Notes under the pieces: generated by a model
What the model was told of the DNA's origin: nothing
The model's input: the letters and a program-made list of their open reading frames with translations, nothing else
The model's database searches: none
Program-made: the position numbers and the translations under genes
Origin: a virus
Reading direction: 5' to 3' (one strand)
DNA length: 26,907 nucleotides
Virus record (IMG/VR): IMGVR_UViG_3300029893_000062
Coordinates: 1-26,907 of that record
Shown here: positions 2,081-19,435 of the stretch, in pieces
How the letters are laid out: each line of letters opens with the position of its first letter
Position numbering within the stretch: position 1 is the stretch's first letter

Positions 2081-2545
2081 ATGGAGATTGAGTTATTTAG
2101 GGAAGGTTTAGTAGTTAATTCTCTTGAAGATGAGATAGCTTTCGATATTGCGTTTAATGGGTTTATATTTGGTGATTCGAAGGTTGAGTTAAAGTCGGAT
2201 GGAGTTTCGAGGGAGCGAATTCATTATTATTATGATTTAATTAAAGAGATTATTCGTGGTTATTCTTCGAGAGATGTAGAAGTTTTTCGTTCTTTTAAGT
2301 TATATTCTTTAGTTATGAAGAAGGCTTTCAGTGAAGTAAAGAAGTTAGATTTAGTTAGTTCGGAAGCTAGAAGTTCGTTAGCTATGGCAAAGCATTTAAA
2401 TATTATTTCTGAAGCTAGACAGCGGATAGATGAAGTTTTAGGTTTGAGGGTTCAGAAGAGTCTTTCGATGCAAGTTCCAGTTCCCCCTATAAATATTAGT
2501 CCAGAGGATATGGAGATTATAAGGAAGTATGTTGAATCAGCTTGA
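2081..2545 (+). CDS. putative terminase small subunit
   Basis: A 154-residue protein just before the large terminase, overlapping it by 17 bases. The sequence is mostly helical with charged residues. A central region (about 45-130) could form the DNA-binding and oligomerising helices of a TerS, and a short Pro-rich stretch PVPPINISPEDM precedes a last helix. I see no diagnostic motif; the call rests on size, position and helical nature. TerS recognises phage DNA and regulates TerL during packaging. The start is odd: no in-frame ATG, GTG or TTG exists upstream or for many codons downstream, so ATG 2081 is forced. The only ribosome-binding-like bases (AAGGA, 2075-2079) are one base from the ATG, too close to work. 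With the promoter at 2043-2071 this suggests a leaderless mRNA. Confidence 0.6.
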   Translation: MEIELFREGLVVNSLEDEIAFDIAFNGFIFGDSKVELKSDGVSRERIHYYYDLIKEIIRGYSSRDVEVFRSFKLYSLVMKKAFSEVKKLDLVSSEARSSLAMAKHLNIISEARQRIDEVLGLRVQKSLSMQVPVPPINISPEDMEIIRKYVESA

Positions 2546-3998
2546 TTTGAAGCGAATAGTATTAGCGAATGATATAAAGTTATTTGCCAAGGAAATTTTT
2601 GAAAATAATTTACCTTCTCATACGGATATTTATTTCAGTTCAGTTTTAAATAATAAGAGAAGTTTAATTTTAGCTCCTAGATGTTCGATTAAATCTACTT
2701 GTCTATCGATTATTTATCCAGTTTGGCGGATTGTTAGGGATAGAAACATAAGGATTTTGTTAATATCGAATTCGTTTAGTTTAGCGAGTCAATATATTCA
2801 ATTAATAGAAAGAGTTTTAGAAAGTGAGAAGTTAGTTTCGGTTTTCGGTTTATTCAAGCCGATTGATGCTTGGGATTTTAAGGACTCTTCGTTTACGGTT
2901 TTTCGGCCAAGAGATATGAAGGATTCTACTATGAGTTGCGCTGGGATTCTCTCTTCTGTGGTTGGGAAGAGGGTTGATTTAATAATTTTAGATGATGCCA
3001 TATCTTTTGAGGATTCCCAATCTTCTGAGTATTGTGATAAGATTAACAATTGGATTTTATCGGAAGTCTTCAATACTTTAGAACCGAAAGGCGAAATAGT
3101 GGTGATTGGAACGCCACAGTCAAGGTTTGATATTTATGGGATTTTGAGAGAGCTTCCTGGCTGGCATCTTGTTCATCTTAAGGCTATAGAAGGTGATAAA
3201 TTACTTTGGCCTGAAAAGTGGAGTAAAGAAGTTTTGGAGGAGAAAAGGCGTGAGATTGGTTCGGTTTTATTTGCGAGAAATTTTCTTTGTGAGCTCTTAT
3301 CTGAGGATGAAAGATATTTTCCTAGGTCGTTATTAAATAGTTGTTTATTGGAGAAGAGAAGATTTTTTTCCGAACAGTCTTATTATGTAATTGGTTGTGA
3401 TTTTTCTATCTTAACTGGTCACACTGCTAAAAAGAAACAAGGTGATTATACAGTTTATTTAGTGATGGAGTATGATCCTCTATTCGAGGAACGGCAAGTG
3501 ATTCATATTTTCAGGAAAAGAGGTTTGACGGTCTTTCAGCAGATTGAAGCTTTGAAAAATTTAGCAAGGAAATATAGACCAAGAAAGATTTTACTTGAGA
3601 ATAATGTTTTCCAAGATCTATATCATCAAATTTTAACTAAGATTACTGATTTACCTGTTAGGGGCTTTAAGATGACCAAGAAGAAGTGGCATCCAGTTGA
3701 GGGAATACCATATCTGAAGGAATTATTAATTCAGCAGAAGATTTTTTTCATAAAGGAGGAAATTGGTGAAGAATTAGTTAATATATTTTTAGACGAATTG
3801 GAAGTATTTCCGCAAGGAAAGCATGATGATATGGTAATTGCTTTATTTTTGGCGGATAAAGCCTTGAAGGGTTCTGGAGTTCGACCATTTGTTGATAGAA
3901 TGTCGGAGGGATTACAAACGAGTGATTTTCTTTATAATGAGGCGTTATCGGAAGAATTTTCTGGTGTTACTTTTACTGGTCAAAGTTTTCCGATTTAA
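2529..3998 (+). CDS. terL: terminase large subunit (packaging ATPase and nuclease)
   Basis: A 489-residue TerL that cuts concatemeric DNA and drives it into proheads through the portal. The ATPase half has a Walker A-like segment APRCSIKST (residues 49-57), Walker B LIILDD (151-156) and the coupling segment VVIGTPQSRFD (191-201). The nuclease half has an RNase H-like set of acidic residues: D291 (GCDFS), E357 (LLENN) and D433/D434 (KHDDMV). Residues 385-489 form the C-terminal tail. The Walker A departs from the usual GxGKS/T: the position before the Lys is Ile, not Gly. All other motifs look intact, so an active enzyme is likely. The start ATG is preceded by AAGGAAGT inside the end of the upstream gene, so translation is probably coupled. 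Confidence 0.93.
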   Translation: MLNQLDLKRIVLANDIKLFAKEIFENNLPSHTDIYFSSVLNNKRSLILAPRCSIKSTCLSIIYPVWRIVRDRNIRILLISNSFSLASQYIQLIERVLESEKLVSVFGLFKPIDAWDFKDSSFTVFRPRDMKDSTMSCAGILSSVVGKRVDLIILDDAISFEDSQSSEYCDKINNWILSEVFNTLEPKGEIVVIGTPQSRFDIYGILRELPGWHLVHLKAIEGDKLLWPEKWSKEVLEEKRREIGSVLFARNFLCELLSEDERYFPRSLLNSCLLEKRRFFSEQSYYVIGCDFSILTGHTAKKKQGDYTVYLVMEYDPLFEERQVIHIFRKRGLTVFQQIEALKNLARKYRPRKILLENNVFQDLYHQILTKITDLPVRGFKMTKKKWHPVEGIPYLKELLIQQKIFFIKEEIGEELVNIFLDELEVFPQGKHDDMVIALFLADKALKGSGVRPFVDRMSEGLQTSDFLYNEALSEEFSGVTFTGQSFPI

Positions 3999-4010: not shown

Positions 4011-5441
4011 GTGAAATCTTTAGATTTGAAGGAAAAGAATAGTTTTTCATTAACTAAATATTTTCCATTTAATTTAGTAAAACTGGAAAAAAAGAGAAAA
4101 GAAGAGCGGGAAGCAGAGAAAGCTGCGAAACAGTTATTATTAGAGTATGGTGCTACTGGAACTAGAATTTTAGCTGGTATAATTCAAGAGGAATATGAGA
4201 CCAAGTTGGCGGCTCTTCCGAATCGGATAGAACAGTTTGACCAAATGCGAAAATCTGATCCAACGGTGGCAGCTTGTCTATTAGTTTTTGAGTTACCGAT
4301 ATTAGCTGCTACTTGGTTTATTCAAGCTGCTTCGGAGCAGGAAGAAGACAAAACGATTGCTAAATTCATTTCAAATAATCTATTTGAAGAGGTTAGTATT
4401 ACTTGGAATGATTTTTTGAGACATGTTCTATTAATACTTCCATTTGGATTTAATATTTTCGAGAAAGTCTTCAAACTTGATGAAGAAACAGGGTTAATCA
4501 AATGGAAAAAATTTGCACCTCGTTTACCTCAAACTTTAAATCAATGGTTATTAGATGAAGAAGGTGGCTTAGCAGGAATAGTTCAAGAAGTTTATATTGC
4601 AAATGAATACAGACTTGTTGAAATACCAGTTGAGAAATTATTAGTTTTTACTTATCGAAGAGAAGGATCAAATTTCGAAGGTGTTTCTCTCTTACGAGCG
4701 GCTTATCGAAGCTGGTGGACTAAAGATAAATTACTGAAAATTCAAGCAATAGGATTGGAACGAAATGCAATTGGAACTCCAACTATTGGTTTACCTGATG
4801 AATATACTAGTCGGGACTTAGAAATGGCAAAAGACATTGTTAGGGCTTGGAGAGCTCATGAACAGATGGGATTTATTAGACCCCCCGGATTTGTCTTTGA
4901 ATCTTCTAATGTCGAAATGAAAGCAGAAGCCTTACAAAATGCAATATCCTATTATGACCATCAAATTGAGAAGTCTATGCTATCTAATTTTCTAGGGCTA
5001 GGTGAGGCAAGAAAAGGTTCTTATGCTTTATCAAAAACTCTTAAGGAAATTTATATGCTAGCTCTTCAAGCTATAGGAAAAGATATTTGCGATACTTTTA
5101 ATAAATATGCTATACAAAAGTTAGTAGATTTAAATTGGCCTGATCGAAAGAGATACCCTAAGTTAACCGTAAAAGGATTAGGCGAATTAGATCGAGAAAC
5201 AATGAGTGAAATAGTTGAGCGATTACAGAGATCGGGATTTCTAACAGCAGATGAAGGATTAGAAGATTTTTTCAGGAAGAGTTTAGATTTGCCTGAGAAA
5301 AAGATGGAGGAAACGAAAATAGGAGTAAAAGAAACAACTTTCGAAGAAGAGTTACAAGTTCTTTGTGAAAAGTATAATATCAAGAAAGAACAATTATATA
5401 AGAAAGATAATAAAACAACAATGAGGTTTTTAGGAAGATGA
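4011..5441 (+). CDS. portal protein, Mu gp29/DUF935-like
   Basis: A 476-residue protein in the portal position right after TerL. The pattern matches the DUF935/Mu gp29 family. After a basic helical N-terminus comes a segment with QFDQMRKSDPTVAACLL, then LPFGFNIFEKVF, a Trp-rich stretch, FTYRREGSNFEGVSLLRAAY (about residues 215-235) and QIEKSMLSNFLG near 320. In this family these elements form the clip, stem and wing around the DNA channel. The portal is a dodecameric ring at one capsid vertex that binds TerL and the connectors. The start is GTG at 4011 with AAGG ten bases upstream. The 3' end overlaps the next gene by ATGA (5438-5441), so the large fused enzyme is translationally coupled to the portal. 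The C-terminal 40 residues are very charged. Confidence 0.88.
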   Translation: MKSLDLKEKNSFSLTKYFPFNLVKLEKKRKEEREAEKAAKQLLLEYGATGTRILAGIIQEEYETKLAALPNRIEQFDQMRKSDPTVAACLLVFELPILAATWFIQAASEQEEDKTIAKFISNNLFEEVSITWNDFLRHVLLILPFGFNIFEKVFKLDEETGLIKWKKFAPRLPQTLNQWLLDEEGGLAGIVQEVYIANEYRLVEIPVEKLLVFTYRREGSNFEGVSLLRAAYRSWWTKDKLLKIQAIGLERNAIGTPTIGLPDEYTSRDLEMAKDIVRAWRAHEQMGFIRPPGFVFESSNVEMKAEALQNAISYYDHQIEKSMLSNFLGLGEARKGSYALSKTLKEIYMLALQAIGKDICDTFNKYAIQKLVDLNWPDRKRYPKLTVKGLGELDRETMSEIVERLQRSGFLTADEGLEDFFRKSLDLPEKKMEETKIGVKETTFEEELQVLCEKYNIKKEQLYKKDNKTTMRFLGR

Positions 5442-8400
5442 TTTATGAAAAGTGGACTGATTCACAGTTATTACAAGAGGAGAGAAGATTAAGAGGAATT
5501 TTTGAAGCTTGGTTGGCTGGAAGCAAGAAGGGCAGCATTGAAGCGGTAGTTAATGCACACGAACTAGTAAAAGATGAAATCTTAAGAAGAAAACTACCTT
5601 ATAAAAGGAGTGCAATAGACGAGTATCTAGACATAATAAGGAAGCAGGAAATTAACGAGATAATTGAATTTGAAGAAGCAAAACACGGATTAATACTTGT
5701 TAAACCTCATGGTGAAATGATTATGACAGGAGAGAAAACACTAATTATTAAGAGAAGGCATTTCGGCAAGTATATTGGAGAACCTCTTTATTTAATAGAA
5801 GGTAACCAAGCACTAGGAATCATTGTATTAAAGTCTCCTAAACCGATTAGCATTAAAGAGTTTTTTGACCTACAGCCACGACATAGAATTTCTGAATCTG
5901 AATTACATGAATGGTGGCCAGGAGCTTATTCATTTTACGCTTATGAATTTGACATTATTGAAAAATTTAAAGAACCAAAACCAATTGAAAGACCAGTTGG
6001 CCCACAAGTTTTCATAACAGATGTAAAATTTTTAGAAAATTATTTAGCTGAAATAGATTTTCTGAAACCTGTAGATACTATTACTGAAAGAGAAATAAAA
6101 GAAGCTTCTACTAAAATATTATGGGGAGATCTCTATTATTTAGAGATTGGCTGGAATCGTTTAAAAGATGGTAAATGGGGCAATTGGACAAAAGATGATA
6201 TAATTAAAACCACAGCTTTTATAATGAAAGAACTAAGAGAAAGAGGTTATGAAGTTCCAGCTTTAACTGAATTAAAACGAAAAGCAGAAAAATACTTACA
6301 AAAGGAATTATACGAAGATATAAACATTTTCACTGAAGATTTAATAGAAATGGATGTGCCAATTGGTCATCCAGAAGGTAAACTTTATTTGGCAAAAAGA
6401 ATTGTTCCCTTATTACCAGAACATAAAATTTATTGTGAACCGTTTTGTTTAGTAAAAGATTCGGAAGTTTTATCTGAAAGTGGATGGAAACCTATCCAAG
6501 AAATGCGAGTGGGGGAGAGAGTTTTCTCTTCGCTTGAATTTAAAACTATTTGTCAGACTTATGAAAGAGAATATCAAGGTCAAATTTTAAAGATTAAAGT
6601 GAAAGGTTATTTTGATTCAGTATCATTTACTGAGAATCATCCGATTCTTTGTATCAAAAGAGAGTTATTATCTTTGGTTAAACAGGAATGGCGGAAATCT
6701 TTTCCTTATCCAGTTCCAAAAATTAAATTTAGTCCGATAAAGTCTAGTCAAACAGAAAAGCAAGTTAAATTGAAAAAATTAACTGTTCAAAGAGCTCGAG
6801 AACTATTGAAATACGCTGAATACATCAAAGCCTCTGAAATAAAGAAGGGAGATCTATTGGTTTATCACTTTGATAATCTAAGAACTAATTGTTTCAAACA
6901 TCCAAGAATTTCGCTTCCTATAGCAAGGCATGGAGGAAGGCGAAGGAATAGACGAATCTCTGTATGTTTAAGCCGAAGTTTTTGCAGATTAATTGGTTTG
7001 TATTTAGCCGAAGGTTGTTATAGTAATAGCAGCGTTCTTTTTACCTTTAACAAGAAAGAAGTAGATTTGATTGATTTTGTTAGAAAAGAAATGAAACGCA
7101 TATTCGATTGTAATGGGTTCAATATGAAGAAAAGTATAAATTCAAATGTAGTAGCACTTCGCTTTAGTTCTGTCCAAGCGTCGAGGTTTTTCCAACAGTT
7201 TGGAAGAAGAGCAAGAAATAAATTTATACCCGAAAATTTAAAGAGATTATCAAATAGCAGACTTCTAATGCTACTTCGAGGTTTGTTTGAAGGTGATGGG
7301 CATTTTGCAAAAAAGGATAAATCCTTCTCTATTACTACTACTTCAAAGAAATTAGCAGATGATATTTTCCTATTGTTGTTAAGACTTGGATTTTGTCCTA
7401 CTCTAACTTTCGGGAAACAAACGACTGCTCTTCCTTTTACGAAGAGAAAGATTGATTGTGTTTATTTTACTCTTAGAGTTGGTTCTGATGGAGCTAAAAG
7501 ATTTGCGAAGCTAATGGGTAAAGATTTTATTTTTGGCTCACCCTCGCATTTGAGTCGGAGAAATGGAATTAACCTATTGAGATATTACCAAAATAAGGAA
7601 AAAATTGGATTTCTTTTAAGACGAGTTGAATCGATTATTTACTCGAATTATAATGGTAAAGTTTATAATTTACAAGTAGTAGATAGCCATTCGTTTATAA
7701 CTAGAATAGCAACAGTTCATAATTGCGGATCAGGAGCGGTTTTCTTTTCTAAACCGAAATCTGAAGTTGAAATTCTAAATGATATAGATGAAAATATTAC
7801 TTTTTTCCTTAAATTTTTGCAACGATGTAATGAAGAAGATATTAACTGGTTGAAACGGAAAGATTGGACTCCTAGTAAAAAGAAATATGAAAAATTTTTA
7901 AATAGTGATTGGAAATCTTTAGAGGATAAAGAAAGAATTTATAGATATTTCTATGCTAAAAGATATTCATTTAATAGGAATCTGAAAGAAGGGATAAGCG
8001 AATATTATAACAAAGTGGGAAAGGGGGATAGACCGCTCATTCCAGTTCTTTTTCAATCCAAATGGAAAAAATTTCACGATAGATTACAAAGAGTGAAGAT
8101 ATATAACAAAGATTATGAGGAAATTTTATTTAAATATGATAGTCAAGATACTTTGTTCTATATTGATCCCCCCTATCCTTCAGCTAGAACTTCTCGAATT
8201 TTTCCGTTTACTCAAGAGGATTTGGAAAAGTTGAAAGAAAATTTGGAAAAATTGAAAGGTAAGTTTATTTTATCAATTTCTTCGGATTATCAAAATTTTT
8301 TCGAAGACTTTGAAGTTAAGCAAATTTATACTCGGCATATATATCCTGATGATCCTAAATTACGAGGTAAACGAAGAGAATTATTAGTTTCTAACTTTAA

Positions 8401-9007
8401 ATTAAAAGAAATTGAAATGGAAACAGCTCCTATTTACCCTGGATATACTACTCCTAGACAAGAGCCTATTCTTTTAGATGAAATGTTAAGCTACTTTGAT
8501 AATGATGGCTTCGAAGTGATTCATCCTGTAGCTTATTTATGCGGAAATATTTGTAACTGGGGATTCAGCGATGGAGATATTGATTTAGTAATTAACCTAC
8601 CAGAAAATTTACCTGAAGAAATAAAGATTCCTATTATATTTAGAATTTTTAGAATGATACCTTTATCTGAAAGAGCAAAAATATGGCCAAGGCTACATAT
8701 TACTTGGAAAAATTATGTAACGAGTTTTACTAATCATATTCCACTTTGGAGTTTAAAATTTCAATCTATTAAACCCTTTGAATTAATAGAGATGGAAGAA
8801 CCAAAGTGGATGCTTCGTTATCCGAAAGAATCTTTAAGGCAAGCTGAAGAAGCGAAAGAAAAAGATAAAGTTGTATTATTCGAATTTTTCTATCCCTTGA
8901 AAAGTGGACAACCTGCTTTTCCTTTATCTAGAGAAAACAACAGATGGGATACGAAGTTTATCATCAACTATTTTCTCGAAAAAGAATTATTGAAAGAAAG
9001 TAGGTGA
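5438..9007 (+). CDS. fused ASCH-like / intein-split D12 adenine methyltransferase / nucleotidyltransferase-like protein
   Basis: A 1189-codon gene. Residues 1-75 are helical. Residues about 84-176 look like an ASCH domain (GEKTLIIKRRHFG, then a WWPGAYSFYAYEF end), a fold that binds RNA or modified nucleotides. Residues about 320-980 are a D12 DNA adenine methyltransferase: GKLYLAKRIVPLLPEHKIYC leads to EPF, then an intein (337-762), then CGSGAVFF, the catalytic DPPY at 910-913, and the closing RRELLVSNF typical of the family. Residues about 1000-1189 resemble a Pol-beta-type nucleotidyltransferase, with G1036-N followed by D1047-x-D1049 (SDGDIDLVI). After splicing the mature protein would be about 763 residues. 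It overlaps the portal gene by ATGA and is followed by a small gene after 4 bases. The methyltransferase call is strong; the ASCH and nucleotidyltransferase calls are moderate. The biological role is unknown: protecting packaged DNA is one inference. Confidence 0.85.
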   Translation: MIYEKWTDSQLLQEERRLRGIFEAWLAGSKKGSIEAVVNAHELVKDEILRRKLPYKRSAIDEYLDIIRKQEINEIIEFEEAKHGLILVKPHGEMIMTGEKTLIIKRRHFGKYIGEPLYLIEGNQALGIIVLKSPKPISIKEFFDLQPRHRISESELHEWWPGAYSFYAYEFDIIEKFKEPKPIERPVGPQVFITDVKFLENYLAEIDFLKPVDTITEREIKEASTKILWGDLYYLEIGWNRLKDGKWGNWTKDDIIKTTAFIMKELRERGYEVPALTELKRKAEKYLQKELYEDINIFTEDLIEMDVPIGHPEGKLYLAKRIVPLLPEHKIYCEPFCLVKDSEVLSESGWKPIQEMRVGERVFSSLEFKTICQTYEREYQGQILKIKVKGYFDSVSFTENHPILCIKRELLSLVKQEWRKSFPYPVPKIKFSPIKSSQTEKQVKLKKLTVQRARELLKYAEYIKASEIKKGDLLVYHFDNLRTNCFKHPRISLPIARHGGRRRNRRISVCLSRSFCRLIGLYLAEGCYSNSSVLFTFNKKEVDLIDFVRKEMKRIFDCNGFNMKKSINSNVVALRFSSVQASRFFQQFGRRARNKFIPENLKRLSNSRLLMLLRGLFEGDGHFAKKDKSFSITTTSKKLADDIFLLLLRLGFCPTLTFGKQTTALPFTKRKIDCVYFTLRVGSDGAKRFAKLMGKDFIFGSPSHLSRRNGINLLRYYQNKEKIGFLLRRVESIIYSNYNGKVYNLQVVDSHSFITRIATVHNCGSGAVFFSKPKSEVEILNDIDENITFFLKFLQRCNEEDINWLKRKDWTPSKKKYEKFLNSDWKSLEDKERIYRYFYAKRYSFNRNLKEGISEYYNKVGKGDRPLIPVLFQSKWKKFHDRLQRVKIYNKDYEEILFKYDSQDTLFYIDPPYPSARTSRIFPFTQEDLEKLKENLEKLKGKFILSISSDYQNFFEDFEVKQIYTRHIYPDDPKLRGKRRELLVSNFKLKEIEMETAPIYPGYTTPRQEPILLDEMLSYFDNDGFEVIHPVAYLCGNICNWGFSDGDIDLVINLPENLPEEIKIPIIFRIFRMIPLSERAKIWPRLHITWKNYVTSFTNHIPLWSLKFQSIKPFELIEMEEPKWMLRYPKESLRQAEEAKEKDKVVLFEFFYPLKSGQPAFPLSRENNRWDTKFIINYFLEKELLKESR
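6446..7723 (+). mobile_element. intein with LAGLIDADG homing endonuclease inside methyltransferase motif I
   Basis: A 426-residue in-frame insertion between EPF and CGSG of the methyltransferase. The N-terminal splice residue is Cys337 (start of CLVKDSEVLSESGWKPIQ). Block B is present as FTENHPIL with the TxxH pattern. The C-terminal end is VDSHSFI ... VHN with penultimate His761, Asn762 and the +1 Cys763, so all residues needed for class 1 splicing are visible. The two LAGLIDADG endonuclease motifs are LIGLYLAEG (518-526) and LLRGLFEGDG (612-621), each with its acidic residue, so the homing endonuclease looks intact. Spliced exteins restore EPFCGSGAVFF. Inteins typically sit in conserved active-site motifs, as here. 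The methyltransferase is inactive until splicing. Confidence 0.95.
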
Positions 9008-9011
9008 AATA

Positions 9012-9365
9012 ATGGCTATTATAACCAAGAAACGAGGCGGAAGATATTTAAGGAATTTCAGCTTCTTCCCAACTACTTCACGAACTCCCGCAACTTATAA
9101 CTCAGATTGGATAGAAGTTGGAGATTTAGATGAATTTATAATTTTTGTTGATGTAACTGCTGTAGAAGCAACTGCTACTCTTGATGTTTCTGCTATCTAT
9201 TCGCCAGATAAAACAACAGAATATGTCCATTCCTCATTAGCTCAAATATCAGCAGTCGGAAAATACTCACTCAGGATCCTGAATTTTGGAAGATATTTAA
9301 GAGTTAAAGCGATAGTAGGAACAGCTTCGGTAACTTTCGGAGGTTTAGGGATAGGCAAAGGATAA
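9012..9365 (+). CDS. small beta-rich protein, possible virion decoration protein
   Basis: A 117-residue protein with a basic N-terminus (MAIITKKRGGRYLRNFSFFP) followed by alternating hydrophobic and polar residues typical of a beta sandwich, ending in Gly-rich GGLGIGKG. No enzyme motif and no cysteines. GTAGGTGA before the ATG provides a ribosome binding site. It starts 4 bases after the fused methyltransferase gene, and its stop shares a base with the next start (TAATG at 9363-9367). Proteins of this size and composition are often capsid or tail decoration proteins, but I do not recognise a family. Its place between two large enzymes is odd for a structural gene; a small accessory subunit of those enzymes is an alternative. 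Confidence 0.75.
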   Translation: MAIITKKRGGRYLRNFSFFPTTSRTPATYNSDWIEVGDLDEFIIFVDVTAVEATATLDVSAIYSPDKTTEYVHSSLAQISAVGKYSLRILNFGRYLRVKAIVGTASVTFGGLGIGKG

Positions 9366-12300
9366 TGATGAAGATTAATGTAATTGGTATAAGAGGCGAA
9401 GTTCCTGAAATTGGTGAGCTGAAAGATACTGCTTACGCATCTCTTGAACTAGTAATTGGAGAATACTCGGTTATTTTCGATTTGGCAGATGAAAGAAGTT
9501 TAGAGTTAATTAAAGCAGTTCCATTAGCGTTATTCATAACACATTTACATAAAGACCATTTCGCTAAAGAGGTAATAAATGCTTTCCAACAAAGATTTCC
9601 AAAGGCTGAAATCTACATACCCCATCGTGTCCTTAAATCGAAATGGAAAGAAGAAACTGCACAAATCAAATTTAAGAAAATTGCGATTGAGGAAACAGTT
9701 GAGATTGCGAGCTTGAAAATTACCGCTTTCCCAGTAGTCCATTCGATTCTTGCTCCGACTGTCGGATATCGAATCGAAAATGAACAAAACTTACTTTATT
9801 TACCAGACTTTCTCTGGGTCGATAGAGAATACACTAAATATCTTGAAAATGTTGATATAGCCATTGTAGGAGCATCATCATTTGCTAAAAATATAGTGAG
9901 AATACCCAAAAATTTTCCCAATCTAAGAATTGGACATATTTCAATGAAGTCAGCTTTAAAATTGGCAAAGAAAAATGAATGGAAACAGGTTTACTTCACT
10001 CATTACGGTCGATTAGAAGGTCGAAAATTCAATGACATCGAAACGGACTTAAGAAAGGAGTTTCCGAATTTGAAATTGTTAAGACAAAATGAAGAGATAA
10101 AATTGAAAGAAATTGACACGATAATTCTGCAGAAAAAGTTTGACGGCGCTCTTTTGGCTTTACATAAGTCTGAGAAGAAGGTTCTAGCTTATACCGAACG
10201 AGGATTTGAAGTATCTCATAGATTACCATTTCTCACGAAAGAACTTTTAGCTTTCAAAAATCCGAAACGATTTGTTGTAATGATTGAAATGGAAAATTGG
10301 AAAGGCGGAGTGCATCGAGGGAGAGAGTTCGCTGGCTCGTATTTGATGGAAAAAGGAGCACCCGACGACCGATTCTTTGCGTTTCACGTTTGGGATATTG
10401 TATATTTTTGGGATGACGAACTCGTTCATCATGAACTACAGTTGACTCGAGGAGATATTCACGATCTACCTCTTATTGATAGACTGCGGTATTTAAGGTT
10501 AATCCCGTTTAAACAATCAACTAATGGAGTTCCCGATTTGAAAAAGAGTTTATTGAATTTAGTTCCAAGTCAAATGATCGAAACAAGCGAAGAACTAGAT
10601 GAAGCCATTCAAAATATGATGAAACAACCTGCTTGTGAAGGAATCATGATTAAAGATCCCAATCATAAGTTCCAACTCGACATGGTTTCCAACGAGATTT
10701 GGAAAGCCAAAGTTTACGTAGAAATTCACGCTATAGTTTATGACCGATACGAGACAAAGGTAAAGGGAGTTTATAATTATGGAATCGCTCTAAGATTTGA
10801 ACCAGATGACAAAATCGACGAACAAACGATTATAAAAATTAAAGATAAGGAATATACTAAAATCGGCAGAAGTTATGCTACGAAAGAAAAACTAGAACCA
10901 GGAACTATAGTCGAAATCCACGCTCATAATTTCGGCTACTACATCACAAAAGAAGATAAAAGACGAATTAACCTTTATGAACCAGTTTTCGCTGGTTCCA
11001 GACCAGAACAGAATATTCCAGATTCAGTTAAAGAAGCGTATAAAATAGCAGAGAGAGGTTTAGCTCTTAAAATTAAAGAAGAACAAGTAGAGTTTCAACA
11101 GTTCGTAAGTGCAGAAGAAATTGATATGGAAGATCCTTACTTGCTAGTCCCATATAGAGAGGAAGGTGGAGTGGAATATGTAGTGCAACTTCACATTAGA
11201 GGCCGTTCTTCGCATAAAGATTTGCGAATTGAGTTAACCAAAGACGTGCTTGTCGGTTGGACTCTCACCGATGCTATCAGAGGAGCTATCAAACAACCAA
11301 TTACTACTCTAGAGGAAGCTGAAAATATAGCTTACGATCCAAAACTTTTCAAAATTGATTGGAATACTGGACTACCTCATTTCAGAAGAAGAATAGTTAA
11401 AGGTAAACTAACTGCTCCAGTCTTTGCAGAAATTACTGCTATCAAAAAAGCTGTCGAACCACCTGAATGGAAAGATTTTCAAGGGGTTACTCCAGTTGGT
11501 GCGGTAGGAGCTACCGCTACACATCCCGGAGTATTTTATATAGTCGATGGAACTCCGAAATTTCGGAAAGCTAAAGCTTGGCATGGATCGAAAAAACCTT
11601 ATTTCTCGGAATGGTTCTTCAGGGGTGGTAAATTAAAAGGTCGTTATTTCGTTCGAAGATTGCGGTTTCCCGAGAGAAGACCAGCTGAAGCTTCAGATGA
11701 ATTCGATACCTATATCCAAGAAGCTCTGAATTCAATCGATACCGAACGAGAAACGGAGTTTTTTCTGCCCATCGATGGAACGGATTTCGAAAGAATAATT
11801 CTCCCACCACCAACTATCGGTGAAGAAGAAACTGGCTATTTATTTATCAAACCTCTCGACGAAACTTGTTACACATTATCAAAGGCTGCTGTAGACAAAG
11901 ATTATTTACCCACTCTTGGTTTTTCAGCTTTACCAGATTGGGTCAGAGAACAAATCCCTACTGAATTCCACTATTGGAAGAAAACTGCTACAAGCGAGGC
12001 TGTAGCTGTCAGGAATAAGTTGGTGGATTTAATTAGAAAAGGGGAAATAAAAATTGAATTTGAATTCCCTGAACTTAAAGAACTAAAGAAAAAATTAGGA
12101 CTAACCTTAACTGAAGAATTTTATAAATTTGAAGAAGAAAAATTCGAACCATTTAAAGCGGAATTAACCTTCCAATGGCAATGGTTCAAGGGAAGAAAAT
12201 TAATTAGACCTGGTGTAAGTAGAGAGCATTGGGATTTGAGAATAGATTTCGGTTCCGAAAAGAAAGACCGTTACTTTCATCTAGTTCTTGAATTAGATCC

Positions 12301-12646
12301 CCGCTTTAATCCAGTTGTCCACGGATATATGAAAAAAATGAAGAATCCAGAAGAAGCGATGGTTAAAGGTGGAACCGAAAAAGAACCTGAGTATCTACCG
12401 CCTAGCACTATCTGGAACCCAACTAAAGCTACGCCATCATTTATAGTTATATATCTAAAACGACATCCAATAACCGTTTTCATAAGACGACCAGACTTTA
12501 TAAAATTTGAAATCGATAGTAAAGAATTAAAGGGACTTTTCACTATTACCCGAGAAAATATGACAGATTTTTGGATTTTGGAAAGAACTAAAACTATTGG
12601 TCAGGAAAATTTTACCAAAACAGAGGAATTACTATTGACAAAATAG
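9365..12646 (+). CDS. fused metallo-beta-lactamase-fold / ATP-dependent DNA ligase / LigD-type phosphoesterase protein
   Basis: A 1093-codon gene, standing alone as one frame. Residues about 1-245 are a metallo-beta-lactamase-fold domain with H60-x-H62-x-D64-H65 and later His and Asp positions (FPVVHS, YLPDFLW, YFTHYG). Residues about 250-560 are an ATP-dependent DNA ligase core: nucleotide-binding K258-F-D260-G261, FHVWDIVYF (motif III-like), E425-GIMIK (motif IV) and K447-A-K449 (motif V), followed by an OB-fold-like region. Residues about 605-775 resemble the 3'-phosphoesterase of bacterial LigD: H610, H617, D619, R621 and FQGVTPVG. A second such module at about 930-1093 has H955-W-D957-L-R959 and the closing LKGLFTITRE pattern. 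The set fits DNA end cleaning and sealing. The overlap with the upstream gene suggests coupled translation. Substrates and the activity of each domain are inferred. Confidence 0.85.
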   Translation: MMKINVIGIRGEVPEIGELKDTAYASLELVIGEYSVIFDLADERSLELIKAVPLALFITHLHKDHFAKEVINAFQQRFPKAEIYIPHRVLKSKWKEETAQIKFKKIAIEETVEIASLKITAFPVVHSILAPTVGYRIENEQNLLYLPDFLWVDREYTKYLENVDIAIVGASSFAKNIVRIPKNFPNLRIGHISMKSALKLAKKNEWKQVYFTHYGRLEGRKFNDIETDLRKEFPNLKLLRQNEEIKLKEIDTIILQKKFDGALLALHKSEKKVLAYTERGFEVSHRLPFLTKELLAFKNPKRFVVMIEMENWKGGVHRGREFAGSYLMEKGAPDDRFFAFHVWDIVYFWDDELVHHELQLTRGDIHDLPLIDRLRYLRLIPFKQSTNGVPDLKKSLLNLVPSQMIETSEELDEAIQNMMKQPACEGIMIKDPNHKFQLDMVSNEIWKAKVYVEIHAIVYDRYETKVKGVYNYGIALRFEPDDKIDEQTIIKIKDKEYTKIGRSYATKEKLEPGTIVEIHAHNFGYYITKEDKRRINLYEPVFAGSRPEQNIPDSVKEAYKIAERGLALKIKEEQVEFQQFVSAEEIDMEDPYLLVPYREEGGVEYVVQLHIRGRSSHKDLRIELTKDVLVGWTLTDAIRGAIKQPITTLEEAENIAYDPKLFKIDWNTGLPHFRRRIVKGKLTAPVFAEITAIKKAVEPPEWKDFQGVTPVGAVGATATHPGVFYIVDGTPKFRKAKAWHGSKKPYFSEWFFRGGKLKGRYFVRRLRFPERRPAEASDEFDTYIQEALNSIDTERETEFFLPIDGTDFERIILPPPTIGEEETGYLFIKPLDETCYTLSKAAVDKDYLPTLGFSALPDWVREQIPTEFHYWKKTATSEAVAVRNKLVDLIRKGEIKIEFEFPELKELKKKLGLTLTEEFYKFEEEKFEPFKAELTFQWQWFKGRKLIRPGVSREHWDLRIDFGSEKKDRYFHLVLELDPRFNPVVHGYMKKMKNPEEAMVKGGTEKEPEYLPPSTIWNPTKATPSFIVIYLKRHPITVFIRRPDFIKFEIDSKELKGLFTITRENMTDFWILERTKTIGQENFTKTEELLLTK

Positions 12647-12767: not shown

Positions 12768-14405
12768 ATGAATGTAACAGATGAAACATTAGAAGAGTTA
12801 GAAGAGTTGGAAAAACGAAGAGTTCTTCCAGCTTACTATTATCCCACTTGGGTGAGTCCGTATTACCCTCGACCCGAAATCTATCCACCAATAAGACGAA
12901 GAGTTCCTCGAAACTACTATCCAGTTCCATTCTACCCCCGATTTCCAAGAGGTTATTATCCTGCGATTTATCCAGCCTTTCCACATATAGCAGTTCTAAA
13001 AGGAGAATTTGAAGAAATCGTCTCTTTACTCGATAAATTAATAGCTGCAGAAAAAAACGAAAAGACGAAAGAAATGTATCAAGAAGTTAGAACAAAAATT
13101 TTGGATCTTTTAAAGGTTCGAAAAGCGGAATATCAATTTGTAAATGATGAAGATGAAGAAATTGCTTTAGAAGTAATTGAATTGATCGAACCGCAGGAAA
13201 TAACTGAAATAATGACTTTACTTGATAAACTTATAGCAAATGCAGAAACCAATCAAGAGCGAAACATGGTAAGGGAAATTAAAGCTAAAATTTCTAGATT
13301 AGTTGGTGGAATTTATCCATATCCATACCCTTATCCAAGACCCTGTTCTTGTAGTGAAGAGAGAGGATTTAATATGATTACAGAGTTAACTAATGAATTA
13401 ATCTTTGACGAAAAAGGTCGTCAACAAATTGAAATTTTAAGAGTGGGAGAATGGGATCATCCTGTCCACGGTAGAATAAGTATTACTTTAGAAGATTTAC
13501 AAAATATGGTGGAAAACTTCGAATCTGGAGTTATAGCTAAAGAACTGCCCGTCAATTGTGCTCACGAAACGAAGCCTGGAGCCGTAGGTTGGATCAAGGA
13601 AATCTTTTTACAAGATAAAATATTAAACGGCTGGGTTGAATGGACTCCTGAAGGTAAAGAAAAATTAGAAAATAAAACCTATAAATATATTTCAGCTGAA
13701 TTTGAAAAAAACTACATAGATCCTGAAACTAAAGCTGAGCATGGAGCGACCTTAGTTGGAGCTGCTTTAACTATTAGACCTATGGTGAAAGACTTAGCTC
13801 CAGTAGCTATGTCTCAAGACGCAGTAGCTGATCTGGAGACTTTATGGAATTCTCTAATTCAACTAGAAGAAAAAATTACTGAAGTGCTTAAAGGACAACC
13901 GGGGAAAAAGTCTTTACTTGAAATGGCAAAACAAATGAAAGAATTAATCGGTAAAAAAATTGGCAAAAAAATAGAAAAATGCGAAGAAACTGCCGAAACT
14001 AAATCTTTAAAAGAACGAATACAAAATTTAGAAACAGAACTAAGAGAATCAAAAATCAAAGAAAAAGTAGCTAAATTGGAAGGGAAAATTCCAATGAATT
14101 TAATGAAAGAGTTAGAAACGCTCTATCTATCAATAGATGCTACAATTGAGCCTCAAATAGATAGCTTTTTGGAGAAGTTACCAAATTACTCTAAACTATT
14201 TACCGAGATTGGATTTTCAGGAAATTCAGAAGAAGTTACAGATTTGGATTCAATTGCTAAAAAAATTATGAAAACTGAAAATAAAAACTATCGAGAAGCT
14301 ATTCAAATGGCAATTGAGCGAAATCCGAATCTATATGAAGATTATAGAAACAAATTCAAAAAACTTTCTTTAGATGAAGAAAATTTGCAGTTAGGAGGTC
14401 GATAA
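12768..14405 (+). CDS. prohead protease/scaffold, Mu I-like, with repeated Tyr/Pro-rich N-terminal extension
   Basis: A 545-residue protein. Residues about 215-350 match Mu I-type prohead proteases: GEWDHPVHGRISIT, then NCAHE with H266, AVGWIKEI, GWVEWTPEG, YKYISAEF with S309, and LVGAALTIRPMV. His and Ser are the likely catalytic pair. Residues 350-545 are Lys/Glu-rich coiled coil, as expected for a fused scaffold cleaved on maturation. The first 202 residues are unusual: a Tyr/Pro-rich stretch (22-70), two related helical repeats (80-115 and 144-179, sharing LLDKLIA), then YPYPYPYPRP and CSC. An internal ATG at 13374 with its own ribosome binding site starts exactly where a normal I-type protein would begin. 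AAAGGAG precedes the long start. It lies first behind the internal promoter and structured leader, and before the cement and major capsid genes. Confidence 0.85.
   Translation: MNVTDETLEELEELEKRRVLPAYYYPTWVSPYYPRPEIYPPIRRRVPRNYYPVPFYPRFPRGYYPAIYPAFPHIAVLKGEFEEIVSLLDKLIAAEKNEKTKEMYQEVRTKILDLLKVRKAEYQFVNDEDEEIALEVIELIEPQEITEIMTLLDKLIANAETNQERNMVREIKAKISRLVGGIYPYPYPYPRPCSCSEERGFNMITELTNELIFDEKGRQQIEILRVGEWDHPVHGRISITLEDLQNMVENFESGVIAKELPVNCAHETKPGAVGWIKEIFLQDKILNGWVEWTPEGKEKLENKTYKYISAEFEKNYIDPETKAEHGATLVGAALTIRPMVKDLAPVAMSQDAVADLETLWNSLIQLEEKITEVLKGQPGKKSLLEMAKQMKELIGKKIGKKIEKCEETAETKSLKERIQNLETELRESKIKEKVAKLEGKIPMNLMKELETLYLSIDATIEPQIDSFLEKLPNYSKLFTEIGFSGNSEEVTDLDSIAKKIMKTENKNYREAIQMAIERNPNLYEDYRNKFKKLSLDEENLQLGGR
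13374..14405 (+). CDS. possible short form of the protease/scaffold from an internal start
   Basis: An in-frame ATG (codon 203 of the long form) is preceded by GAGAGG at 13361-13366 with 7 bases of spacing, as good as the sites of separate genes here. The product of 343 residues, starting MITELTNELIFDEKGRQQIE, would contain the whole protease and scaffold regions without the Tyr/Pro-rich extension. Nested in-frame starts are known in capsid assembly genes, such as lambda C/Nu3 and Mu I/Z. Use of this start is inferred. Confidence 0.4.
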   Translation: MITELTNELIFDEKGRQQIEILRVGEWDHPVHGRISITLEDLQNMVENFESGVIAKELPVNCAHETKPGAVGWIKEIFLQDKILNGWVEWTPEGKEKLENKTYKYISAEFEKNYIDPETKAEHGATLVGAALTIRPMVKDLAPVAMSQDAVADLETLWNSLIQLEEKITEVLKGQPGKKSLLEMAKQMKELIGKKIGKKIEKCEETAETKSLKERIQNLETELRESKIKEKVAKLEGKIPMNLMKELETLYLSIDATIEPQIDSFLEKLPNYSKLFTEIGFSGNSEEVTDLDSIAKKIMKTENKNYREAIQMAIERNPNLYEDYRNKFKKLSLDEENLQLGGR

Positions 14406-14408
14406 ATT

Positions 14409-14780
14409 ATGGCACAATCTCATTATGTCTTAGATAAATCTTTTAAGGCTGCCACAGATTTATCAGCAAATCAATACTGTTTCGTTAAACTTGGAGCTAA
14501 TGAAGGAGAAGTTACTCTCTGTGATACCCTTGGTGAATTTGCTGTAGGTGTTTTACAAAATAAACCTAAAGCAGGTCAACAAGCTGCCGTCAGACTACTC
14601 GGAACTTCAAAAGTAGTTGCTAATGCGGCTATCACTCGAGGAGCCTTCATTACTGCAGCTGCGACTGGCAAAGCTGTGGGGACTACTACAGCCGGCCATC
14701 ATATTCGAGCTCTAGCGTTAGAGGCAGCCACCGCAGTGAATGAAATTAAAGAATTTTATTTAGTTAATTTTAAATACTAA
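14409..14780 (+). CDS. capsid cement/decoration protein, DUF2190-like
   Basis: A 123-residue Ala/Gly-rich protein just upstream of the major capsid gene. It begins MAQSHYVLDKSFKAATDLSA, continues with YCFVKLGANEGEVTLC, a GVLQNKPKAGQQAAVRLLG stretch and an AITRGAFITAAATGKAV segment. This is the pattern of DUF2190-type capsid cement proteins, which trimerise at capsid three-fold sites and stabilise the shell. AGGAGG overlaps the end of the upstream gene, ahead of the ATG. The high Ala content and beta-rich pattern fit a virion surface protein. Family assignment is by pattern and position. Confidence 0.8.
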   Translation: MAQSHYVLDKSFKAATDLSANQYCFVKLGANEGEVTLCDTLGEFAVGVLQNKPKAGQQAAVRLLGTSKVVANAAITRGAFITAAATGKAVGTTTAGHHIRALALEAATAVNEIKEFYLVNFKY

Positions 14781-14800: not shown

Positions 14801-15724
14801 ATGAAACCAACCTTAACAGATGTTCATGTAGATAAAATTTTAACAAACTTTTCAGTTGCTTGGAAAAATGAATTATTCATTGCTGAACAGATTTTTCCTC
14901 CAGTAATAGTCGAAAAGGAAAGCGATAAGTATTTTGTATATGGACAAGAAGCCTTTAAATTGGTTAAAGCTAAAAGAGCAGATGGTGCTCCAGCCGTTGA
15001 AGTAGATTGGTCAGTCTCTACTGATTCTTACTCAACCGATGTAAGAGCTCTGTCTAAACTTGTAACAGAGAGAATGAGAGCTAATGCCGATATTCCATTA
15101 AATATGGATAGAGATACGACCGAGTTTTTGACAGAGAAATTAGCGGTTGACCAAGAAGATGAAGCTGCTAGTATAGCATTTTCTACAGCATTTATAACCA
15201 ATTATGCTACTCTAGTGGGAACTGCTCAGTGGAATAACTACGATACTTCAGACCCTTTCTCGGATATTGAATTAGGAAAAGAATCTATTAGAACCAAAGC
15301 AGGTAAAGAGCCTAATTTAATTGCAGTTGGAGGAGCAGTCTTTGCTAAATTAAGACAACATCCAGATATTTTAGATAGACTAGGACACCATCGAAATAGA
15401 TTTGCTACTTCTGCGGATTTGGCTCAACTTTTTGAAGTAGAGAATTTCTTAGTCGGTAGAGCGCTGAAAGATACGGCTGCAGAAGGAGTTGCCGCAGTCA
15501 AAGCCTATATTTGGGGTAAACATTCCTTAATCGCTTATGTAGCTCCTAAGCCAGCTTTGAAAACTTTAACTTTAGGAATTACCTTTAGAGTTAGAGGTTA
15601 TAGAAAAACTAAACGATTTCCCCTAGCTCTCAGAGAGGGAGATTTAATAGAAGTTGATGACAATTATGCGATTAAAATTGTATCAACTGACTGTGGTTTC
15701 TTGATTGCAGATTGCATAGCATAA
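14801..15724 (+). CDS. major capsid protein
   Basis: A 307-residue protein in the major capsid position between the cement and connector genes, with the strongest ribosome binding site of the block (AGGAGG, 9 bases before ATG). It begins MKPTLTDVHVDKILTNFSVA, continues with AEQIFPPVIVEKESDKYFVY and a middle region rich in acidic residues and helices (FLTEKLAVDQEDEAA), and ends with a beta-rich part including LTLGITFRVRGYRKTKRFPL. The IFPPV ... DKYF segment recurs in HK97-fold capsid proteins of several siphovirus groups. No long N-terminal delta domain is present, in line with a separate scaffold. I cannot place it in one exact family. Confidence 0.82.
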   Translation: MKPTLTDVHVDKILTNFSVAWKNELFIAEQIFPPVIVEKESDKYFVYGQEAFKLVKAKRADGAPAVEVDWSVSTDSYSTDVRALSKLVTERMRANADIPLNMDRDTTEFLTEKLAVDQEDEAASIAFSTAFITNYATLVGTAQWNNYDTSDPFSDIELGKESIRTKAGKEPNLIAVGGAVFAKLRQHPDILDRLGHHRNRFATSADLAQLFEVENFLVGRALKDTAAEGVAAVKAYIWGKHSLIAYVAPKPALKTLTLGITFRVRGYRKTKRFPLALREGDLIEVDDNYAIKIVSTDCGFLIADCIA

Positions 15725-18331: not shown

Positions 18332-19435
18332 ATGAAGATTCGAGTATTAGGTGCTCTACTCAATGCAAGTGGTTATGGCGAAGCAGCTAGAAATTTAGTT
18401 CGTGCTTTGCGGTTAGCTGGATATTCAGTCTCTATAGGTTATTTCAATAATCCACTCTCAAAAATTTCCAAGGAAGAACTTAAAGAGTTTTCCTCTGATC
18501 ATACCGAACTTCCTGATCTAGAAATTCAAGTAATAATCCCAGAAGCATTTGCTGAAAGTAGAAATTCTTCTATTCCTACAATTCTTTACTCTGTCATGGA
18601 AGGTAGAGGAAAAATTTTACCTTCTTGGGCTGAAGCTAGTAACCTTGCCGATGAAGTTTGGCTTCCCTCTAGAGAGAGTCAAGAGACTTTCCTAAATGGA
18701 GGAGTAAATAAACCTACCCGAATAGTTCCTCACTTTATAAATACCGATATCTGGAAGCCTATTAAGAAAATCAAAAATAAATTCACCTTTTTGTCAGTTT
18801 TTGATTATCAAAGTAATTACCGCAAGGGAATAGAAATTTTAATAGGTGCTTATCTTTCTACTTTCCATTCTGAAGAGCGAGTAAGGCTAGTATTGAAATT
18901 TCAGAAAGGGTATGAATTAACTTTCAAAAATAGACTTGAAAGGGCATTAATCCAAGCTAGAATGAATAAAATACCAGAAATAGGAATTATTTCGGAAGAT
19001 TGGCCGGTAGAAAAGATGATTGAATTATATCAAAATTCTGATTGTTTTGTTTTGCCTAGTCGAGGTGAAGGTTTTCTTTATCCAGCTTTACAAGGGATGG
19101 CTAGTGGGTTACCCGCTATGGTTCCAGAATTTGGAGGTTTTAGAGATTATTGTAATGAAGAAAATTCCTTCCTGATTAAAGTTGAGAAATGGGTTGATCC
19201 ACCTGCAACGGAAAAATTTTATAAATATGTCAAATGGGTAGAACCTTCTTTACCTCATTTAAGAAGACTGTTGAGATTCACTTTTGATAATAGTCAATTA
19301 GTTTATTTGCGAGGATTAAAAGCTCGAGAAACTGCCTTAAATTATTCGTTGCAAGAGGGCTCTAAAATGTTAAAAAATCTTTTAAAAGATTTCGAAAGGA
19401 GAGTGATTTATAATGGCGAGATTAGATGCCATTGA
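18332..19435 (+). CDS. glycosyltransferase, GT-B fold (GT4-like)
   Basis: A 367-residue enzyme expected to transfer a sugar from a nucleotide-sugar donor. The N-terminal half has LNASGYGEAARNLVRALRLA, a common GT4 opening. The donor-binding half has FLSVFDYQSNYRKG (R164, K165) and LPSRGEGFLYPALQGMASG. In most GT4 enzymes the last motif is EGFGLPxLE, with two Glu eight residues apart. Here E246 is present but the second position is Gln254, which may change donor binding or activity. It sits between tail tube and tail chaperones and overlaps the chaperone gene by 23 bases. It could glycosylate a virion protein or the host surface; both are inference. It has no signal peptide or membrane segment. 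Confidence 0.83.
   Translation: MKIRVLGALLNASGYGEAARNLVRALRLAGYSVSIGYFNNPLSKISKEELKEFSSDHTELPDLEIQVIIPEAFAESRNSSIPTILYSVMEGRGKILPSWAEASNLADEVWLPSRESQETFLNGGVNKPTRIVPHFINTDIWKPIKKIKNKFTFLSVFDYQSNYRKGIEILIGAYLSTFHSEERVRLVLKFQKGYELTFKNRLERALIQARMNKIPEIGIISEDWPVEKMIELYQNSDCFVLPSRGEGFLYPALQGMASGLPAMVPEFGGFRDYCNEENSFLIKVEKWVDPPATEKFYKYVKWVEPSLPHLRRLLRFTFDNSQLVYLRGLKARETALNYSLQEGSKMLKNLLKDFERRVIYNGEIRCH

Follow-up and report, generated by a model that had tools for sequence, protein, structure and literature searches.

The locus and its multidomain protein

The stretch analysed here, hereafter the window, is the viral record IMGVR_UViG_3300029893_000062 over its full 26,907 bases. On its plus strand, an open reading frame (ORF) at 9365-12646, uninterrupted from its ATG start, encodes a protein of 1,093 amino acids (aa), called P0001, in which a metallo-beta-lactamase (MBL) domain is followed by an ATP-dependent ligase and by two modules, PE1 and PE2, that resemble the phosphoesterase (PE) of LigD. 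PE1 reads as a module whose phosphate pocket was remodelled beside an intact metal triad, PE2 appears to be the worn module, and the protein belongs to a conserved viral cassette that probably heals and seals DNA ends. Its parts are as follows.

9365..12646, plus strand: MBL-ligase-PE1-PE2 protein, 1,093 aa (domain and profile searches)
9365..10102, plus strand: MBL domain, aa 1-246, with ligands H60, H62, D64, H65, H126, D148 and H213 (Pfam, PDB profile, conservation)
10106..10711, plus strand: ATP-dependent ligase adenylation domain, aa 248-449, with the nucleophile K258 and E308, E425, K430 and K447 (Pfam, PDB profile, conservation)
10712..11044, plus strand: ligase OB-type region, aa ~450-560 with inferred limits (the match of the family profile to the archaeal DNA ligase 4eq5 continues through its C-terminal part)
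11171..11662, plus strand: PE module 1, about aa 603-766, with H610/H617/D619 and R621, E698 and W702, and K744, P745, E749 and R760 (profiles; fold of the relative L014)
12155..12595, plus strand: PE module 2, about aa 931-1077, with H955/D957/R959 kept and Q939 at the first His (profiles; predicted fold)

In Pfam, P0001 matches Lactamase_B_2 at aa 55-214 (5e-17) and DNA_ligase_A_M at aa 248-449 (1.3e-9), and the C-terminal half is blank. As a single sequence it has no match to LigD_N (PF13298) at E<=1, and hence the PE modules lie below single-sequence detection. Neither Pfam nor NCBIfam finds a PrimPol domain in P0001, in searches that were not aimed at distant PrimPol forms.

An earlier interpretation made from the letters of the window alone (the sequence-only reading) had described P0001 as a single-chain DNA end-healing enzyme with an additional MBL domain and two LigD-type PE modules. 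This composition is borne out by Pfam, the PE profiles and the predicted folds. The single chain does not hold the complete set, since ASCH, methylase and nucleotidyltransferase (NT) modules lie in the upstream ORF 5438-9007.

LigD-type phosphoesterase modules

The family profile of PE1 (relatives of the window are numbered L003 and so on; see below), compared with all of the PDB at E<=10, matches only five distinct solved LigD or archaeal PE sequences, from 3p43 (2e-4) to 2lj6 (0.039), and the top ranks for the PE2 profile are 3p43 (1.7e-6) and 3p4h (4.3e-5). In profile-profile comparisons, in which the LigD side was represented by five LigDs from plasmids, PE1 matches the LigD PE at E 5.9e-10, PE2 matches it at E 3e-7, and the two modules match each other at E 1.4e-9.

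The predicted folds agree with the profiles. In the AlphaFold model of PE1 and PE2 of the window (pLDDT 79, pTM 0.61), the six best matches of PE2 are LigD PE entries (Z 14.8-10.9), followed by a row at Z 4.1; its alignment with 3p43 (Z 14.8) spans 119 residues with a root-mean-square deviation of 2.2. The structure-match listing barely covers PE1 of the window itself, and the fold evidence for PE1 comes from the module of L014, modelled together with its NT (pLDDT 86, pTM 0.59). This module matches the same six entries at Z 10.3-6.8, 3p43 being the best (Z 10.3), and nothing else listed there exceeds Z 3.2. By profile and predicted fold, then, both modules are real LigD-type PEs. Chance resemblance of the PE motifs is ruled out, because the profiles single out LigD PEs and the predicted folds agree. 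The sequence-only reading had suggested such a comparison with the LigD PE; both modules share the fold, and neither is residue-complete, PE1 having no His/Tyr pair and PE2 carrying Q939.

An altered phosphate pocket in PE1

According to part of a review (PMC8656161), His42, His48 and Asp50 of Pseudomonas aeruginosa LigD hold Mn, while Arg52, His84 and Tyr88 hold a sulfate that mimics the scissile phosphate, and mutants of the triad, of His84 or of Tyr88 are inactive. In the viral PE1 modules, the metal triad H610/H617/D619 is invariant (29/29 rows) and R621 is Arg in 28 of the 29. The partners of the phosphate are replaced. At the His84 position the viral rows carry Gln (17), Glu (11) or Lys (1), the window having E698, and at the Tyr88 position all 29 carry Trp, which is W702 in the window. 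Neither His nor Tyr occurs at these positions in any viral PE1 row, whereas both are kept in 13/13 cellular PEs, namely five LigDs and eight PEs of the stand-alone type, the latter encoded in genomes belonging to two phyla. K744, P745, E749 and R760 are likewise invariant in PE1 (29/29).

The 29 rows consist of 28 taken from 38 hits, some with widened limits, and L003, which was added by hand. Dropped from the 38 were the near-copies L008, L010, L012, L018, L019 and L028, three third-module hits, and L036, which is cut by an intein; L034 and L041 lay outside the list of 38. Near-copy status was our own judgement, and an identity of 93-95% to L007 was shown for L008-L010 only.

The window segment EPPEWKDFQG aligns without gaps with EDHPLxYxxFEG of LigD, placing E698 at His84 and W702 at Tyr88. 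An alignment artefact that hides the His/Tyr pair is ruled out by this gap-free segment and by the lack of both residues throughout the viral rows. The His-His loop also differs, with a spacing of 6 residues in 26/29 PE1 rows vs 5 in 13/13 cellular PEs. A 27th row, L040, reads 3, which is an artefact of the intein cut: the first-His column of this row is occupied by the intein, which the true first His precedes.

Because the loss of His and Tyr is lineage-wide and the triad is untouched, PE1 reads, from residue conservation, as a module with a remodelled phosphate pocket and not as one that is decaying. Decay specific to the window is ruled out, as the triad is kept in 29/29 rows and the swap is common to all of them. 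The sequence-only reading had correctly placed H610, H617, D619, R621, H955, D957 and R959, the extra residue between the two His of PE1, and the segment EPPEWKDFQG where the His and Tyr would lie. Its description of PE1 as the module lacking usual residues is right about the His/Tyr pair; it needs revision in that PE1 is not a decayed copy.

Inteins offer a further view of PE1. Inteins tend to settle in active sites. Intein-like inserts in PE1 lie within HIRGR/SVHIDFR in L040, between the two metal His, and before QKPYFHE in L036. Given the preference of inteins for active sites, the inserts mark HxRGRSxHxD and QKPYFHE as important and support catalysis by PE1. Elsewhere in the relatives, similar inserts interrupt the ligase in motif I (L023) or motif V (L040, L041) and the NT (L021, L033). 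The sites were placed by visual inspection of the insert termini; L036 and L040 also have LAGLIDADG or splicing matches. The PE1 inserts of L040:4831-7839, L041:4561-7692, L036:3176-6265 and L053 occupy different sites.

PE2 and a probable division of labour

PE2 of the window keeps H955, D957 and R959 (HWDLR) and has Gln939 at the first His. The full triad, a first His followed by HxDxR, is present in only 5/31 PE2 rows (L006, L007, L009, L020 and L024) and incomplete in 26/31, and the rows other than the window and those five have lost more. Of 47 hits, 31 entered these counts; third modules were omitted, as were the near-copies already dropped for PE1. On this pattern of residues, PE2, not PE1, is judged to be the decayed module, and the best division of labour would have PE1 as catalyst and PE2 as binder. 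The sequence-only reading had suggested that one module binds and the other catalyses. Such a division is indeed likely; the loss at Q939, which makes PE2 the worn partner, had gone unnoticed.

In a maximum-likelihood tree, PE1 (29 rows, support 99/95), PE2 (31 rows, 100/98) and the cellular PEs (13 rows, 99/99) each fall on one side of a branch. Given the shortness of the PE domains and two long PE2 branches, the deeper order is unsure. From the separation of the three groups it follows that the pocket swap is old and shared, and that the PE modules were already in tandem before these viruses spread.

Ligase, MBL domain and the companion ORF

Ligase motifs I (KxDG), III, IV and V are present in the window (K258, D260, G261, E308, E425, K430, K447). 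E308, E425 and K447 are conserved in 26/26 rows and K258 in 25/26, the sole gap being a truncated row. The nearest PDB matches of the ligase profile are archaeal and eukaryotic DNA ligases (4eq5, 1.5e-25), and LigD is weaker (1vs0, 8.6e-8). The MBL ligands (HxHxDH, His, Asp, His) are complete in the window and conserved in 11/11 rows, except D64 (10/11). The MBL profile matches 1zkp, RNase Z (2.7e-12) and PhnP, and Apyc1 (7u2r, 7e-4) is among the weakest of 40 matches. From these similarities, the domain may act as a nuclease or as another phosphodiesterase.

The remaining modules are encoded directly upstream.

5438..9007, plus strand: companion ORF with ASCH, D12 adenine methylase (intein-split) and MNT-like nucleotidyltransferase (Pfam, family profiles)
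5618..6037, plus strand: ASCH-like domain, aa 61-200 (profile match to 2dp9; Pfam ASCH in members)
6446..7723, plus strand: intein, aa 337-762, inside the Dam motif EPF/CGSGAVFF, with LAGLIDADG endonuclease (domain matches)
8468..9004, plus strand: nucleotidyltransferase module, aa 1011-1189, with G and the two Asp of DxD (profile, conservation, fold of the L014 homologue)

The ASCH family profile matches 2dp9 (TTHA0113) at E 1e-5, and Pfam ASCH is found in 6/19 members. The window intein splits the D12 methylase exactly at EPF/CGSGAVFF, and the catalytic motif DPPY is intact downstream of it. PADLOC matches of the companion ORF are mainly type II methylases, with one homing endonuclease.

In the NT, the G and the two Asp of DxD are conserved in 22/22 rows. 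A third carboxylate is visible by eye in ANMV-1, L005, L007, L013 and L014 and is not obvious in the window. The NT profile matches only terminal transferase (or TdT-chimera) chains in the PDB, weakly (E ~0.3), and NTP_transf_2 of Pfam is found in 1/22 members (E 0.037). The predicted L014 NT fold is nearest to MNT antitoxins, from Z 5.8 downwards, a weak similarity, as Z<8 may mean a shared arrangement only. We tentatively assign the NT to the Pol-beta superfamily on this profile and model evidence.

Distribution and module order among relatives

Among 50,697 phage records, ANMV-1, whose archaeal host is uncultured, was the only match at the sensitivity used. When viral contigs were scanned with profiles, one scan yielded 3 loci and another 36, two of the latter (L037, L038) being contigs already found; together with the window and ANMV-1 there are 39 loci. 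A viral-contig search with P0001 alone, keyed on exact short peptides, had no matches. The genome-contig scan (at least 3 matches) used a single peptide pattern, one that the window itself would fail. L047 is apparently the same contig as L026 (length 24,094 for both). In the VIA family lists, absence of a family does not exclude it.

Iterative hidden Markov model searches show a usual module order of MBL, ASCH, a variable part, NT, ligase, PE1, PE2 and often a third PE, in one to several ORFs; many loci end at a contig edge with the left part missing. Exceptions are L007-L010, where the NT follows the ligase, L006 and L031, where ASCH precedes MBL, and L015, where NT-ligase comes before MBL and ASCH. 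In the window, the cassette is split into ASCH, D12 methylase and NT in ORF 5438-9007 and MBL-ligase-PE1-PE2 in ORF 9365-12646. ASCH and NT share a polypeptide with the ligase and PEs in L006, L012, L024 and L029, and the single chain of L029 comprises MBL, D12 methylase, ASCH, NT, ligase and PEs. As L029 thus holds the modules of both ORFs in one chain, the two ORFs of the window are most plausibly parts of a single system.

Several relatives have peculiarities of their own. The L014 locus has long ORFs on both strands. In L007-L010, ligase homology is spread over two consecutive ORFs. L024:361-5802 encodes a cassette protein of 1,814 aa with an AAA ATPase between PE1 and PE2 and PADLOC IetA matches. 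L005:4735-6147 starts with a region that by eye resembles a cytosine-5 methylase, followed by NT and ligase, and L018:2449-7260 has a PEGA domain match within the cassette protein.

Among cellular genomes, matches were found in 11 of 392 from the phylum of an Archaeoglobales metagenome-assembled genome (MAG), G038, and in 4 of 384 from the phylum of an Omnitrophota MAG, G039. The strong matches (E<1e-12) are mostly cassette-like long ORFs, and eight weak ones are stand-alone PEs. Besides the L047 cassette, the Archaeoglobales MAG G038 has another, diverged ligase-PE cassette on its contig C3 (L053, L067, L068).

Head-gene setting and hosts

The two window ORFs lie between head genes, a setting on which the sequence-only reading had not drawn.

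2529..3998, plus strand: terminase large subunit (upstream head gene)
4011..5441, plus strand: portal (upstream head gene)
12768..14405, plus strand: Mu-like head protease (downstream head gene)
14409..14780, plus strand: cement/decoration protein (downstream head gene)
14801..15724, plus strand: major head protein (downstream head gene)

In 30/39 loci the cassette has homologues of head genes (terminase, portal, protease, capsid) in its vicinity, and several of the other loci are short or end nearby. Eight different PHROGs are the top capsid match in the window, L003, L007, L013, L016, L023, L024 and L029. Direct PHROG scans of 30 neighbouring ORFs left part without a match or with function-unknown families only, and the protease assignment of the largest group is one weak PHROG match (4.5e-4). 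In L013:4519-8598, an NT-LIG-PE1-PE2 protein ends C-terminally in an XkdF head protease (E 7.4e-14). That the cassette persists beside different head-gene families points to a function connected with the particle or with late expression. Tail genes are also near ORF 9365-12646. Among them is a group 1 glycosyltransferase gene (18332-19435), and the left end of L004 looks similar by eye.

The hosts differ. A bacterial-type sliding clamp, DnaN, is encoded at 418-1566 on the minus strand of the window and points to a bacterial host, and ANMV-1, which carries a TATA-binding protein (TBP), is archaeal. Host-placing searches for TBP, PCNA and DnaN were thin, yielding DnaN solely in the window, TBP solely in ANMV-1, and one sub-threshold PCNA in the record of L016. 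Ku was found in 0/39 records in a search with Bacillus subtilis as control; many of these records are incomplete, and the host could supply Ku. Ku-dependent viral non-homologous end joining (NHEJ) is disfavoured by this lack of Ku in the 39 records, with the same reservation about the host.

Proposed role and alternatives

The reading that we favour, with about even confidence, is that ORF 9365-12646 is the ligase/PE half of a conserved, Ku-less viral cassette for end healing and sealing, encoded between the portal and head-protease genes of tailed viruses that infect bacteria and archaea, and that its product is likely packaged and acts on the incoming genome. The activities, packaging and substrate we infer from homology, predicted folds, residue conservation, synteny and one head-protease fusion. 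PE1 would bind a divalent metal through H610/H617/D619 and remove a 3'-blocking phosphate or ribonucleotide, its phosphate pocket being rebuilt on E698/W702, and perhaps K744/E749, in place of His84/Tyr88 of LigD. The ligase domain would adenylate the 5' phosphate through K258 and then seal, while PE2, its triad broken at Q939, might hold DNA or the fold. The MBL domain might trim nucleic acid or hydrolyse a phosphodiester. No Ku would be needed. The protein would be made with the head and packaged in it, and its substrate would be the incoming viral genome, either for circularisation or for repair of nicks or breaks.

Several observations weigh against this proposal. The loss of the His/Tyr pair is a genuine argument against an active PE1: mutation of either residue inactivates the LigD PE, at least as part of the review describes it (PMC8656161), and PE1 may therefore be inactive or act on another substrate. 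ANMV-1 has Met at R621. In the window ligase, Leu replaces the Arg of KxDGxR, which 13/26 rows have, and L014:4252-8091 has NT-PE1-PE2 with no ligase detected. The pTM of both models is modest (0.61 and 0.59). Head-gene linkage could reflect late expression only.

The chief rival, which we regard as possible although doubtful, is an injected counter-defence polyvalent protein, whose MNT-like module would adenylylate a host HEPN-type ribonuclease, whose MBL would destroy a signalling nucleotide, whose methylase would mask the DNA, and whose ligase and PEs would undo nuclease damage. It overlaps with the end-repair proposal. It would account for the closeness of the NT fold to MNT antitoxins, although at such Z values a common arrangement only may be meant, and the window NT has no obvious third acidic residue by eye. 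The MBL profile does reach Apyc1 and PhnP, but Apyc1 stands far behind the RNase Z-like proteins. The D12 methylase of L029 and of ORF 5438-9007 in the window, the AAA ATPase embedded in L024, and the position among head genes, which parts of PMC5512222 and PMC9503650 describe also for polyvalent proteins and phage ADP-ribosyltransferases, would suit counter-defence as well. However, PADLOC has no matches in P0001, L006 or L012. A known defence system is disfavoured, P0001 being without a PADLOC match.

Less likely, and in our view rather improbable, is that both PEs are non-catalytic barrels that bind DNA or capsid, so that the enzyme is the ligase alone, perhaps with the MBL. The absence of His84/Tyr88 from all 29 PE1 rows, given the inactive LigD mutants of that partly covered review (PMC8656161), and the incomplete triad in 26/31 PE2 rows would fit such barrels. 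Yet an invariant H610/H617/D619 is hard to explain for a mere binder, and the inteins within HxRGR/SxHxD and before QKPYFHE speak against it too. Weakest is an RNA repair cassette, in which an RNase Z-like MBL, ASCH as a possible RNA binder, NT and ligase would rejoin cut tRNA or mRNA: it has in its favour the RNase Z match, the ASCH-like domain and the action of LigD PE on ribonucleotides (described in part of PMC8656161), but it is quite unlikely, as the closest matches of the ligase profile are replicative DNA ligases (4eq5) and not RNA ligases, and a DNA methylase belongs to the same set.

Returning to end healing and sealing, we put forward a wider idea only speculatively. Tailed viruses of bacteria and archaea might share a packaged, Ku-independent counterpart of LigD, with an MNT/Pol-beta-type NT in place of the LigD polymerase, an archaeal-type ligase core, and a re-engineered PE (Glu/Gln and Trp) that heals 3' ends. 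Arriving in the cell alongside the genome, it would close or repair the DNA ahead of attack by host nucleases.

Comparison with known systems

LigD PEs, viral ligases and polyvalent proteins are already known. No description of the module combination, of the lineage-wide swap in the pocket or of the linkage to head genes was found in the parts of the open-access literature covered, and the main text of the ANMV-1 paper, in a word search, has no word beginning with 'ligase' (PMC4372165).

With a single match among the phage records, dozens of IMG/VR contigs, and capsids in eight top PHROGs, the family is large, multi-enzyme and almost undescribed. By replacing both residues and keeping the triad, a whole lineage provides a natural test of the role of the "essential" His/Tyr pair of the LigD PE. 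If packaged, the protein would be, to our knowledge, among the few DNA-repair ligases that travel with a viral genome. Members from thermophiles could find use as end-repair reagents.

The XkdF head protease (PF14550), fused at the cassette C-terminus in L013, is unfused in the other scanned cassette proteins (5/6). HEPN-MNT minimal nucleotidyltransferases have the nearest listed fold to the NT module, but the similarity is hardly detected by Pfam. Phage polyvalent proteins (Iyer et al. 2017, PMC5512222) are likewise large multidomain phage proteins with nucleotidyltransferase domains, and the cassette, like them, combines multiple enzyme domains in a single chain whose gene lies among head genes. 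They differ in that a word search of the paper gave neither 'metallo-beta-lactamase' nor 'ASCH', and its 'ligase' passages, as far as that search reached, concern RNA ligases.

ANMV-1 AJP62006.1, annotated as an ATP-dependent DNA ligase, belongs to the same family, with NT-LIG-PE1-PE2 beside a portal-like gene. It differs from P0001 in that no MBL or ASCH was found in it, in its Met at R621, and in the lost PE2 motif. The archaeal stand-alone NHEJ PEs (3p43, 3p4h, 5dmp) are the nearest solved structures to both viral modules. In contrast to these, they are single domains with the canonical His/Tyr, and the eight cellular stand-alone PEs all keep the pair.

LigD (POL-PE-LIG) shares with the viral cassette the PE fold, the His-His-Asp triad with its Arg, and the joining of a PE to an ATP-dependent ligase. 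The viral cassette differs in that Pfam finds no PrimPol in P0001 and no Ku was found in the 39 records, while its ligase core is archaeal/eukaryotic-like, its His-His loop is one residue longer, its His84/Tyr88 pair is replaced (29/29), and it carries two or three PE copies.

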